63,407 bases of DNA, taken from Burkholderiales bacterium (GTDB taxonomy: Bacteria > Pseudomonadota > Gammaproteobacteria > Burkholderiales > Burkholderiaceae_C). The stretch is taken from positions 1 to 63,407 of the forward strand of contig JACPOI010000033.1 in assembly GCA_016185015.1 (NCBI GenBank). The letters run 5' to 3'. Below, one piece after another: positions 20,573 through 27,467 of this stretch; positions within the stretch are counted from its first letter, which is position 1; the number at the start of each line of letters is the position of its first letter. The notes beneath the pieces were generated by a model. It was not told the DNA's origin. It saw only the letters and a program-made list of their open reading frames with translations, and made no database searches. The position numbers were made by a program, and so were the translations under genes.

Positions 20573-22576
20573 TCACGTGGCCGACAGCTTCAACAGCTCC
20601 GCGCCCTCGGCCACCTGGTCCCCCGGCACATACAGCAACTCTGCCACCACCCCCGCGGCCGGTGCCGCGATGGTGTGCTCCATTTTCATGGCCTCCATCA
20701 CGGCCAGCACCTGGCCCTTGGCCACGGTGTCGCCGGCCTTGACCGCGAAGGACACGACCTTGCCCGGCATCGGCGCCGTCAGGCGGCCACCTTCGGCCTG
20801 CGCCTCGCCGGCATGGGCCAGCGAGTCCAGCACCGTGATCTGGGTGGCGCCCTGCGGGGTGAACACGTGGGCCACCTCGCCGCTGCGCAGCACCTGCACG
20901 AGCACCCGCAGGCCGGCGTAGTGCAGGACGATGTCGCCCCCTTGGCGGCTGAACTGCAGTGCGGCGCCGGCCTCTTCCACCCGCAGCTGCAAGGCACCGT
21001 CGTGCAGATAAGTCAGCACCGCCGTGTGCTGCTCCCCGTGGAACGCGAGGTCGAAGTAGCGTTGTGTCAGGCCTTGCGAACGCCAGCCGTCGCGCCGTGC
21101 CCAGGGATCCACCCAGCCCGCTGACTGGGCGGCGTCCTGTTCCTGCAGCAGTGTGTGCGCCACCACGGCCGCGGTGGCCAGGGGCAGGCCCACCTTTTCC
21201 TGCTCGAACAGCACCGCCGCCTCACGCGGAATCAGTGCGGTATCCAGATCGGCCTGCGCAAAGGAGCGGCTGCCCACCACATGGCGCAGGAACTGCACAT
21301 TGGTCTGCAGGCCCACGATGCGCGTGGCCGCCAGCGCGGCGTCGAGCCGGGCCAGGGCCTGCTCGCGCGTGTCGCCGTGCACGATGAGCTTGGCGACCAT
21401 GGAGTCGTAAAAAGGAGAAATGGCGTCGCCCTCGCGCACACCGGAGTCGACCCGCACATCAGCGCGTTCGAAGGTGCTGCACGGCGGCAGCGCATAAACC
21501 TGCAGCGTGCCCGTGGCCGGCAGGAAATGTTTGTCGGGGTTCTCGGCGCAGATGCGCGCCTCGATGGCGTGCCCCTGGATCTTCAGCTGTTCCTGCTTGA
21601 GCGGCAGCGGCTCGCCGGCCGCCACGCGCAGTTGCCATTCAACGAGATCGAGCCCGGTGATGGCTTCGGTCACCGGGTGCTCGACCTGCAGGCGGGTGTT
21701 CATCTCCATGAAGAAGAAGTTCATTTTCCCGTCGCGCTGCTCGACGATGAACTCCACCGTACCCGCACCCACGTAGTTGACGGCGCGTGCCGCCGCCACC
21801 GCGGCCTGGCCCATCTGCTGCCGCAACTCGGGTGTCATGCCCGGCGCCGGCGCCTCTTCCAGCACCTTCTGGTGGCGACGCTGCACCGAGCAGTCGCGCT
21901 CGAACAGATAGACGCAGTTGCCTTGCGTGTCGCCGAAGACCTGGATCTCGATATGACGCGGGCGCAGCACGTATTTCTCGATCAGCACCGCCGCGTCGCC
22001 AAAGCTGTTGATGGCTTCGCGCTGGCACGAGGCGAGCGAACCCTCGAAGTCCTCGCGCTTCTCCACCACGCGCATGCCCTTGCCGCCGCCGCCCGCGCTG
22101 GCCTTGATCAGCACCGGGTAGCCGATGCGGTCGGCCTCGTGCTGCAGCAGCTTCACATCCTGGTCGGCACCGTGGTAACCCGGCACCAGCGGCACGCCGG
22201 CTTTTTCCATCAGGCGCTTGGATTCGGCTTTCAAGCCCATGGCCTGGATGGCCGAGGCCGGCGGGCCGATGAAGACCAGCCCGGCTTTCGCACAGGCTTG
22301 GGCAAAGGCTTCGTTCTCGCTCAGGAAACCGTAGCCCGGGTGGATGGCCTGCGCTCCCGTGGCCTGGGCCGCGTCGAGGATGCGCTCCCAGCGCAGATAA
22401 CTTTCCGCCGGCGCACTGCCGCCGATGTGCACGGCCTCGTCGCAGACACTGACGTGTTTGGCATTGGCATCGGCATCGGAATAGACGGCCACGGTCTGGA
22501 TGCCCAGGCGTCTGGCGGTCGCGGCGACCCGACAGGCGATTTCACCGCGATTGGCAATCAGTATCTTTTTAAACAT
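20573..22576 (-). CDS. liuD: Methylcrotonyl-CoA carboxylase alpha subunit (biotin carboxylase + BCCP)
   Basis: A 667-residue biotin-containing subunit. The biotin carboxylase domain (about 1-445) starts MFKKILIANRGEIACRVAATARR and has the ATP-grasp loop KASAGGGGKGMRVV and the active-site region FMEMNTRLQVEHPVTE. The C-terminal biotinyl domain has EAMKMEH with Lys631 as the biotin site. Together with the beta subunit it carboxylates 3-methylcrotonyl-CoA in leucine breakdown. The assignment to methylcrotonyl rather than propionyl or geranyl substrate rests on neighbours (HMG-CoA lyase, a LiuR-type box). The start overlaps the bioD stop by 8 bp, and the beta subunit is 3.3 kb upstream with bioA, bioF and bioD between. 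Also called mccA. Confidence 0.9.
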   Translation of the reverse strand: MFKKILIANRGEIACRVAATARRLGIQTVAVYSDADANAKHVSVCDEAVHIGGSAPAESYLRWERILDAAQATGAQAIHPGYGFLSENEAFAQACAKAGLVFIGPPASAIQAMGLKAESKRLMEKAGVPLVPGYHGADQDVKLLQHEADRIGYPVLIKASAGGGGKGMRVVEKREDFEGSLASCQREAINSFGDAAVLIEKYVLRPRHIEIQVFGDTQGNCVYLFERDCSVQRRHQKVLEEAPAPGMTPELRQQMGQAAVAAARAVNYVGAGTVEFIVEQRDGKMNFFFMEMNTRLQVEHPVTEAITGLDLVEWQLRVAAGEPLPLKQEQLKIQGHAIEARICAENPDKHFLPATGTLQVYALPPCSTFERADVRVDSGVREGDAISPFYDSMVAKLIVHGDTREQALARLDAALAATRIVGLQTNVQFLRHVVGSRSFAQADLDTALIPREAAVLFEQEKVGLPLATAAVVAHTLLQEQDAAQSAGWVDPWARRDGWRSQGLTQRYFDLAFHGEQHTAVLTYLHDGALQLRVEEAGAALQFSRQGGDIVLHYAGLRVLVQVLRSGEVAHVFTPQGATQITVLDSLAHAGEAQAEGGRLTAPMPGKVVSFAVKAGDTVAKGQVLAVMEAMKMEHTIAAPAAGVVAELLYVPGDQVAEGAELLKLSAT

Positions 22577-23258
22577 CGATCTTCACCTTTCCAAGGTCCA
22601 GATAAGCCGCTGCCGCGGCTGCGGTGGGATGTTCGAGCCGTGGCACATGGCCCAGCAGCGGGGCGGAAATGCGCGCCGCGATCGCCTCGATATTGCCGTC
22701 CATATGGCCCATGGCCGGGTCCACGGTGTTGGCCACCCAGCCAGCCAGCTTGAGCCCGCGCGAGGCGATGGCCTCGGCGGTCAGCAAGGCATGGTTGATG
22801 CACCCCAGGCGCAGGCCCACCACGAGAATGACGGGCAGGCCCAGCTGGCGGGCCAGATCCGAGGTGTCGTAGCCATGGGTCAGCGGCACGCGCCAGCCCC
22901 CCACGCCCTCGACCACCACGGCCTCGGCCTGGGCGCGCACCCGCTCGTAGCTGGCGATGATGTGGCGCGGCTCGATCAGCACGCATTCCTGCGCCGCCGC
23001 AATATGGGGCGCGGCCGGCGTGCGCAGCAGGTAGGGCGTGGTCAGTTCGCGCGGAAGTTTCAGAGGCGCCGCGTCATGGAGCTGGTCCACGTCCTCGTTG
23101 TGCCACGTGCCATCGCGCAGCTCGGCGCCAGCCGCCAGCGGTTTCATGCCGGCGGCGCGCACCCCCGCCTGGCCCAGCACATACAACAGGGCGCTGCTGA
23201 TCAGGGTCTTGCCAATCTCGGTGTCGGTGCCGGTGACGAAGCAGGAAAAAGCCTTCAT
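22569..23258 (-). CDS. bioD: Dethiobiotin synthetase
   Basis: A 229-residue ATP-dependent enzyme that closes the ureido ring of biotin from 7,8-diaminononanoate and CO2. Seen in the sequence: the P-loop FVTGTDTEIGKTL at the N-terminus, KPLAAG, VVEGVGGWRVPL and the C-terminal nucleotide pocket. The ATG at 23258 is set by a full AGGAGG ribosome-binding site at 23268-23273, which lies just upstream of the bioF stop, so translation is coupled. It overlaps the following carboxylase alpha gene by 8 bp. Confidence 0.94.
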   Translation of the reverse strand: MKAFSCFVTGTDTEIGKTLISSALLYVLGQAGVRAAGMKPLAAGAELRDGTWHNEDVDQLHDAAPLKLPRELTTPYLLRTPAAPHIAAAQECVLIEPRHIIASYERVRAQAEAVVVEGVGGWRVPLTHGYDTSDLARQLGLPVILVVGLRLGCINHALLTAEAIASRGLKLAGWVANTVDPAMGHMDGNIEAIAARISAPLLGHVPRLEHPTAAAAAAYLDLGKVKIDV

Positions 23259-23262
23259 GGTT

Positions 23263-25829: not shown

Positions 25830-25859
25830 GGGGCCCGCATTCTGGCAGGCCAGACCGCA

Positions 25860-27467
25860 TCACATGCGGAACACACCGAACTTCATGTCGGGAATAGGCG
25901 CGTTGAGCGAGGCCGACAGGCCCAGCGCCAGCACGCGCCGCGTATCGGCCGGGTCGATCACGCCGTCGTCCCACAAACGGGCCGTGGCGTAGTAGGGGTG
26001 GCCCTGCTCCTCGTACTGCTGGCGGATCGGAGCCTTGAAGGCCTCTTCTTCCTGCGCGCTCCAGGCCCCGCCCTTGCCCTCGATACCGTCGCGCTTGACG
26101 GTGGCCAGCACGCTGGCGGCCTGCTCGCCGCCCATCACGCTGATGCGTGCGTTAGGCCACATCCAGAGGAAACGCGGGCTGAAGGCGCGCCCGCACATGC
26201 CGTAGTTGCCGGCACCAAAAGAGCCGCCGATGATGACGGTGAACTTGGGCACGTTGGCGGTGGACACCGCCGTGACCATCTTGGCGCCGTTGCGTGCGAT
26301 GCCTTCGTTCTCGTACTTGCGGCCCACCATGAAACCGGTGATGTTCTGCAGGAAGACCAGCGGGATCTTGCGCTGGCAGCACAGCTCGATGAAGTGCGCG
26401 CCCTTGAGCGCGGATTCGCTGAACAGGATGCCATTGTTGGCAATGATGCCCACCGGCATGCCCTCAATGCGCGCAAAACCCGTCACCAGCGTGGTGCCGT
26501 AGCGGGCCTTGAACTCGTCGAACTCGGAGCCGTCGACGATGCGCGCGATGATCTCGCGCACATCGAAAGGCTTGCGCGTGTCGGCCGGGATCACGCCGTA
26601 GAGTTCCTCGGCCGGATAACGTGGCGCTTGCGGCGCGTCCACGCTCACCGGCAGCGTCTTGCCGATGTTGAGGTTCTTCACCGAGGCGCGGGCCAGCGCC
26701 AGCGCGTGCAGGTCGTTCTGCGCCAGGTGGTCGGCCACACCCGACAGGCGCGTGTGCACATCGCCCCCGCCCAGGTCTTCGGCCGTCACCACCTCGCCGG
26801 TGGCGGCTTTCACCAGCGGCGGGCCACCGAGGAAGATGGTGCCCTGGTTCTTGACGATGATGGCCTCGTCGCTCATGGCGGGCACATAGGCGCCGCCCGC
26901 CGTGCACGAACCCATGACCACGGCGATCTGCGCGATGCCCAATGCACTCATCTGGGCCTGGTTGTAGAAGATGCGGCCGAAGTGATCCCGGTCGGGGAAG
27001 ACCTCATCCTGATTCGGCAGGTTGGCGCCGCCCGAGTCCACCAGGTAGATGCAGGGCAGGCGGTTCTGCTGCGCGATCTCCTGCGCGCGCAGGTGCTTCT
27101 TGACCGTGACAGGATAGTAGGTGCCGCCCTTCACGGTGGCATCGTTGCAGACGATCATGCAGTCCACGCCGCTGACCCGGCCGATGCCGGCGATCAGGCC
27201 GGCGCAGGGCGCGTCGCCGTTGTACATGTTGAAAGCCGCCAGCGGAGACAGTTCGAGGAAGGGCGTGCCGGGGTCGAGCAGGCGCTGCACGCGCTCGCGC
27301 GGCAGCAGCTTGCCGCGGGCCGTGTGCTTGGCGCGGGCGGCCTCGCCGCCGCCCTGGGCCACCTGGTCGAGCTGGGCCTGGTGATCGGCCACCACGGCAC
27401 GCATGGCCGCCGCGTTGGCCTGGAAATCGGCCGAGCGGGCGTTGAGTTGGGTTTCCAGAATCGGCAT
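25860..27467 (-). CDS. liuB: Methylcrotonyl-CoA carboxylase beta subunit (carboxyltransferase)
   Basis: A 535-residue carboxyltransferase subunit that moves the carboxyl group from biotin to 3-methylcrotonyl-CoA. Seen in the sequence: the N-terminal acyl-CoA half ([42 protein letters not shown]) and the C-terminal half ([53 protein letters not shown]). The combination [11 protein letters not shown] and GNYGMCGRA is typical of methylcrotonyl rather than propionyl carboxylases. It is the first gene of a minus-strand operon that continues to bioA, bioF, bioD and carboxylase alpha. Its ATG lies 50 bp downstream of a 24-bp LiuR-type palindrome. Also called mccB. Confidence 0.93.

Follow-up and report, generated by a model that had tools for sequence, protein, structure and literature searches.

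In a Burkholderiales bacterium (family Burkholderiaceae_C; assembly GCA_016185015.1), three biotin synthesis genes, bioA, bioF, and bioD, lie between two genes whose products we call the subunits of methylcrotonyl-CoA carboxylase (MCC), an enzyme of leucine breakdown. The DNA analyzed, hereafter the window, is the 63,407-nucleotide stretch of contig JACPOI010000033.1 (positions 1 to 63,407, forward strand). An earlier note on this DNA had described the bio genes as enclosed by the MCC subunit genes, and we reproduced both the order and the coordinates, with all genes on the minus strand. This confirmed one co-directional, tightly packed liuB-bioA-bioF-bioD-liuD cluster with a LiuR-type palindrome in front. 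We propose, with a probability of roughly 0.55, that the genes from liuB through liuD and on to ghrA and liuE form a LiuR-controlled operon with bioAFD inside, and that a basal promoter before bioA supplies a second input. The genes of this putative operon are as follows.

25860 to 27467, minus strand: liuB, MCC beta (carboxyltransferase) subunit, the first gene of the operon; an open reading frame named by similarity and operon context
24456 to 25829, minus strand: bioA, adenosylmethionine-8-amino-7-oxononanoate transaminase; TIGR00508, 530.8 bits (cut-off 405)
23263 to 24459, minus strand: bioF, 8-amino-7-oxononanoate synthase; TIGR00858, 448.2 bits (cut-off 426.45)
22569 to 23258, minus strand: bioD, dethiobiotin synthase; TIGR00347, 161.4 bits (cut-off 83.3)
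20573 to 22576, minus strand: liuD, MCC alpha subunit; Pfam Biotin_carb_N/C, Biotin_lipoyl, and BT_MCC_alpha, all above cut-off
19616 to 20536, minus strand: GhrA-like 2-hydroxyacid dehydrogenase in the same operon; NF012013, 319 bits (under the cut-off of 403)
18688 to 19659, minus strand: liuE, hydroxymethylglutaryl-CoA (HMG-CoA) lyase; NF004283, 447.2 bits (cut-off 246)

BioA, BioF, BioD, and HMG-CoA lyase were judged by curated NCBIfam (equivalog) cut-offs, and each scores above its own. The liuB product passes no NCBIfam cut-off (its best match is mmdA, at 312.8 versus 998.8 bits), no MCC beta model is among its matches, and it is up to 82.6% identical to Burkholderiales carboxyl transferases. 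We call it MCC beta on the strength of gene context and similarity. Likewise, methylcrotonyl-CoA is the probable substrate of the carboxylase, judging from the neighboring genes for HMG-CoA lyase and an acyl-CoA dehydrogenase. The liu gene names follow usage in the literature, with no database match behind them. A GhrA-like gene like that at 19616 to 20536 (minus strand) also stands between liuD and liuE in many Oxalobacteraceae (48 to 56% identity).

The junctions within the cluster are mostly as the earlier note had given them. The bioA and bioF genes overlap by 4 bp, bioF and bioD are separated by 4 bp, and bioD and liuD overlap by 8 bp, such that the bioD stop codon sits within the liuD start. 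The 30-bp spacing claimed between liuB and bioA depends on the start codon chosen for bioA, as it holds for the TTG at 25829 and becomes 51 bp for the TTG at 25808. The true start is likely the TTG at 25808, because the same start is common to the near-clade loci L006, L007, and L011.

Four near relatives carry an additional stretch of about 120 nucleotides between bioD and liuD, on the minus strand (L006:10743-10867, L008:3067-3191, L011:10734-10858, and L090:8382-8506). This insert opens with a copy of the first 35 nucleotides of liuD (0 to 5 differences) and continues with a strongly foldable stretch, for which 35 pairs are predicted, 2 with a compensatory change and some broken. Loss of the DNA between both 35-nucleotide copies would yield the 8-bp bioD/liuD overlap of the window. 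The L006 insert matches no Rfam family at gathering score, and the operon region of the window (18000 to 28500) likewise contains none. We rejected the insert as a repeat (one copy in genome G265, zero in G000 and G161) and as a coding leader, as its variable columns per codon phase (7/9/4) are not protein-like.

The predicted regulator and its putative operators are also encoded in the window.

27519 to 27540, unstranded: LiuR-type palindrome before liuB, exact TTGACGTTTACGTAAACGTCAA, overlapping the last base of the -10-like CACAAT (27545-27540)
34074 to 34095, unstranded: LiuR-type palindrome before an acyl-CoA dehydrogenase gene (32929 to about 34056, minus strand)
46574 to 46595, unstranded: LiuR-type palindrome before liuR-thioesterase-liuA, abutting the -10-like CAGAAT
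46092 to 46493, minus strand: liuR, MerR-family gene (MerR_1 and MerR-DNA-bind), the predicted operon regulator, with its own palindrome upstream
45660 to 46088, minus strand: 4HBT thioesterase (domain match), part of the liuR-liuA unit
44469 to 45647, minus strand: acyl-CoA dehydrogenase (Pfam), likely isovaleryl-CoA dehydrogenase (liuA)

The palindrome that the earlier note had placed ahead of the first gene was thus found as an exact copy. LiuR-type sites occur three times in the window, where 0.01 would be expected, and five times in the genome, compared to none for a reversed control pattern. The five TTGACGTTTACGTAAACGTCAA-type sites precede liuB, liuR-liuA, the acyl-CoA dehydrogenase gene, a gene for a protein with B12-binding and MeaB domains, and a short-chain dehydrogenase gene. 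The MerR-family gene is likely LiuR, and the finer name liuA was given to the gene at 44469 to 45647 because it stands behind liuR. Each of the three palindromes in the window either adjoins or overlaps a -10-like hexamer (CACAAT at liuB, CATAAT at the acyl-CoA dehydrogenase gene, and CAGAAT at liuR); judged by motif placement, this geometry is that of a repressor site. In Shewanella, LiuR is described as a MerR-family repressor (PMC3223726). Furthermore, of the 9 near-clade loci that reach liuB, 8 carry the exact palindrome in front of this gene (the window, L006, L007, L010, L011, L054, L089, and L090), and the ninth, L052, does not. Both AATCTGCCACAA and the palindrome are identical in seven of the eight loci that carry the palindrome, with L054 deviating.

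A second conserved element stands directly before bioA.

25831 to 25848, minus strand: conserved 18-mer CTGCCAGAATGCGGGCCC, a candidate LiuR-independent promoter with the extended -10 element TGCCAGAAT

This 18-mer, CTGYCAGAATGCGGGCCC between liuB and bioA, is kept in the window, L007, L010, L011 (with one mismatch), and L090, which are five of the eight near-clade loci where it could be judged. It is present in a single copy in the window genome when two mismatches are allowed. The element TGCCAGAAT before bioA is closely similar to TGCCACAAT of liuB, but it has no accompanying LiuR palindrome. The 18-mer persists in L010 despite a DinB-family gene (L010:3712-4230) in the liuB/bioA interval, and also in L090, where the interval holds a comparable stretch. 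By eye, the 18-mer could also fold as a short hairpin. We prefer the promoter because L090 retains the loop without an intact stem, and the 18-mer may be a promoter for bioA that acts independently of LiuR. Separately, a match with three mismatches to the 17-mer upstream of bioA lies at 46552 to 46568 (plus strand), where it adjoins the liuR palindrome and points to a divergent metallo-beta-lactamase-like gene at 46610.

The earlier note had read the cluster as tightly coupled genes behind a LiuR-type palindrome, an arrangement that, if real, would let cofactor supply rise with the enzyme in need of it. The co-directional genes, the operator over the liuB -10-like hexamer, the recurrence described below, the presence of only one bioA, and a biotin ligase on which no DNA-binding domain was recognized all agree with that reading, whereas the 18-mer suggests that bioA has a promoter of its own. 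The idea of one promoter and one switch is therefore only partly supported, and two inputs are more likely because a conserved, -10-like 18-mer that lacks a LiuR site stands before bioA. Under our proposal, demand for branched-chain degradation would cause LiuR to leave the operator lying over the liuB promoter, and read-through would then yield a single transcript that encodes both MCC and the enzymes of the final steps to dethiobiotin, with overlapping stops and starts coupling their translation. The second, LiuR-independent promoter directly before bioA would provide biotin for constant need. Such a mechanism would entail that the genes are co-transcribed, that a signal causes LiuR to let go of its operator, that the promoters are active, and that more biotin becomes available.

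The bio genes of the window recur beside liu genes in many relatives, as emerged from the gene-order search that the earlier note had suggested. We counted bioA as linked when it lay no more than 8 kb upstream of liuD and shared its strand, and the resulting counts are lower bounds owing to contig breaks. Among 150 genomes of the family, bioA was found in 71, liuD in 136, and both in 66. Linkage was observed in 21 of these 66 genomes, the window's own included, spanning 14 genera, and one further genome has bioA 20.7 kb from liuD. By our own estimate, chance would account for approximately 0.06 of the 66 genomes versus the 21 seen, although related genomes are not independent. In a second sample of 150 genomes from the order, 43 besides the window's own have both genes, and 4 of these (families f7 and f31) are linked; in one more genome the two genes are 9.8 kb apart and on opposite strands. 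In a plasmid search that used the bio insert together with liuB as the query, none of 497 matching records covers 80% of the query.

A biased sample of 80 loci chosen by BioD similarity includes 43 with liuB or liuC, then bio genes, then liuD; 7 with bio genes and liuE only; and 11 with no liu neighbor despite room for one. The remainder are too short (13), lack bioA (4), or are partial (2). Pooling the loci at hand gave 67 liu-bio-liuD arrangements, with some genomes counted twice. bioB lies inside 58 and liuC inside 60 of these 67, and by gene content the window's clade is a reduced form of the arrangement. In seven of the 67, all from Collimonas or close to it, bioF is ahead of bioA, and in genome G123 (L092) only bioA occupies the slot. 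Loci from Herminiimonas, Oxalicibacterium, and the like (L035, L046, L056, L057, L069, L072, and L073) carry bioAFDB and then liuE, with neither liuB nor liuD in the vicinity; L073 has no bioF match in this stretch. These loci are possible remnants of a larger operon.

Several observations weigh against our proposal. For the second promoter, the 18-mer was not found in the near-clade loci L006, L052, and L054. Tight packing is common, not general, among relatives, as the gap before bioA is 150 nucleotides or less in 43 of the 67 pooled arrangements and that before liuD in 33. Of 65 linked relatives whose locus includes liuB, only 16 have a LiuR-like site (three mismatches or fewer) within 600 nucleotides upstream of that gene, namely the window's clade, L030, and the Massilia group (eight loci plus L096). 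No such site lies in that interval in the remaining 49, which include Undibacterium, Collimonas, and a Roseateles-like group; L095 offers no room upstream of liuB for a judgment. We fetched longer upstream stretches for 17 linked relatives, of which 16 reach liuB, and 13 of the 16 have no LiuR-like site even with up to five mismatches. Two have good sites 7 to 9 kb upstream, at liuR/liuA, and one has a weak, four-mismatch match about 7.8 kb away. The liu-bio coupling is also dispensable, because G161, a genome from the window's own genus, has a liu operon in which liuB and liuD are 12 nucleotides apart (stop to start) and has no bioA match at E ≤ 1e-100. Finally, only part of the biotin pathway is coupled in the window, because bioB is on another contig of this genome and no protein in the genome passes the BioC cut-off (best score 85 versus 185 bits).

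Consistent with these distributions, LiuR is, as predicted from its sites, the regulator only in some lineages that share the liu-bio arrangement. We also rejected the idea that LiuR sites generally mark bioA. The family sample has 45 genomes with unlinked bioA, and in the 13 of them that we examined, no LiuR site lies within 10 kb of bioA; 12 of the 13 have LiuR-like sites elsewhere, but G182 has just one, which does not exceed its control.

Two histories could have produced the arrangement. In the first, which we hold tentatively at somewhat short of even odds, an old liuBC-bioAFDB-liuDE operon of the Burkholderiales was inherited vertically, the window's clade was reduced by the loss of liuC and bioB, and in other lineages the bio genes were relocated. 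The bio genes hold this position not only in the window's clade but also in Oxalobacteraceae and Sphaerotilaceae (Roseateles), and the LiuD tree follows families. In addition, a narrow approximately unbiased (AU) test that grouped the window's BioA with its own family rather than with Oxalobacteraceae did not reject this placement (P = 0.41, at a cost of 3.7 log units, with 80 of 114 rows). The state of G161 is most simply a loss of bio genes, because its LiuD is sister to that of the bio-bearing locus L011 and so is nested among bio-bearing relatives. Gene order is not fixed, however, as illustrated by the Collimonas loci, and the free BioA tree places the window's clade among Oxalobacteraceae rows. 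A broad AU constraint was rejected (P = 4e-12), although it held together rows that themselves lie elsewhere.

The second history is that horizontal transfer brought the window's bioAFD into its slot from the equivalent slot of an Oxalobacteraceae-like liu operon, which we regard as possible though not probable. The conflict between the free BioA and LiuD trees argues for this, as does BioA identity, which is approximately 71 to 81% to most Oxalobacteraceae rows versus 58 to 71% to the window's own family outside the genus; both also count against strictly vertical descent. The conflict is not significant in the narrow AU test, and we therefore set aside transfer as an established fact, with the free tree no more than hinting at it.

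With regard to regulation, bioAFD might be driven essentially by its own promoter, in which case the slot within the liu operon would be a historical accident of little regulatory meaning. This explanation would account for the conserved, single-copy, -10-like 18-mer, which is kept even behind an intervening gene (DinB family in L010, a comparable stretch in L090), and for the 49 of 65 linked relatives that lack a LiuR-like site near liuB. We nevertheless consider it unlikely, since bio genes occupy this place in 14 genera of the family and also outside it, in further families, and the stop/start overlaps of bioA/bioF and bioD/liuD suggest that liuD itself is read through the bio genes. A one-off assembly artefact or a chance neighbor is ruled out by the recurrence of the arrangement in relatives.

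The earlier note had also reckoned with another full bioAFD set as an alternative source of biotin. The genome (assembly 95.8% complete) contains one bioA match at E ≤ 1e-100, and a second bioA elsewhere is therefore rejected; no separate genome-wide search was made for bioF or bioD. The sole match to a BirA-type biotin ligase carries ligase domains only and can be read as 253 amino acids or, from the furthest start, as 294. A domain search of both readings recognized no DNA-binding domain. Beta-proteobacterial BirA has lost its DNA-binding domain, and BirA regulons are apparently nonexistent there, according to PMC5343134.

Among the remaining genes of the window, one at 8247 to 14012 (minus strand) encodes a UvrA-like protein of 1,921 amino acids that contains multiple repeated ATPase parts and is roughly double the length usual for UvrA.

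The window resembles the LiuR (MerR) regulon for branched-chain amino acid degradation in proteobacteria in that the MerR gene has its own palindrome before liuR-liuA and operators precede liuB and an acyl-CoA dehydrogenase gene; it differs in that bioAFD lies inside the liuB-liuD unit. Biotin genes are not named as LiuR targets in the available excerpts of PMC5343134, PMC3223726, PMC7238569, and PMC9023270. The bioAFDB cluster of Cupriavidus metallidurans CH34 (PMC2864759) comprises the same biosynthetic genes, named in the same order. However, the pertinent excerpts of that paper present it as a biotin locus, with no link to leucine genes, whereas bioAFD in the window is apart from bioB and enclosed by MCC genes. 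Joint regulation of biotin synthesis and a consumer pathway is also seen in excerpts on the BirA regulon of Desulfovibrionales, which includes fab genes (PMC5343134). There, a biotin-sensing repressor controls both, whereas in the window biotin gene expression would follow the regulator that governs the consumer pathway, and the biotin ligase of the genome has no recognized DNA-binding domain. We found no description of bio genes in a liu operon in the literature searched, which consisted partly of excerpts and had the main LiuR regulon survey outside its scope, and a prior description is possible.

Control of biotin synthesis in beta-proteobacteria appears open, and the recurrence of bio genes inside the operon of a biotin enzyme offers a concrete and easily tested answer for some lineages. 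It is doubtful, and we suggest it only as a speculation, that across much of the Burkholderiales, where a BirA-type repressor is missing, the control of biotin synthesis has been handed to leucine breakdown, a large biotin consumer, with LiuR exerting that control in the Massilia group and in the window's clade. If this were true, feed-forward read-through from the liu promoter, whatever the regulator, would set biotin supply by expected use and not by biotin level. Relatives with linked, unlinked, and lost bioA, including one loss in the same genus, constitute a natural experiment. If our proposal for the window is correct, the cell may make more biotin while it is burning leucine.

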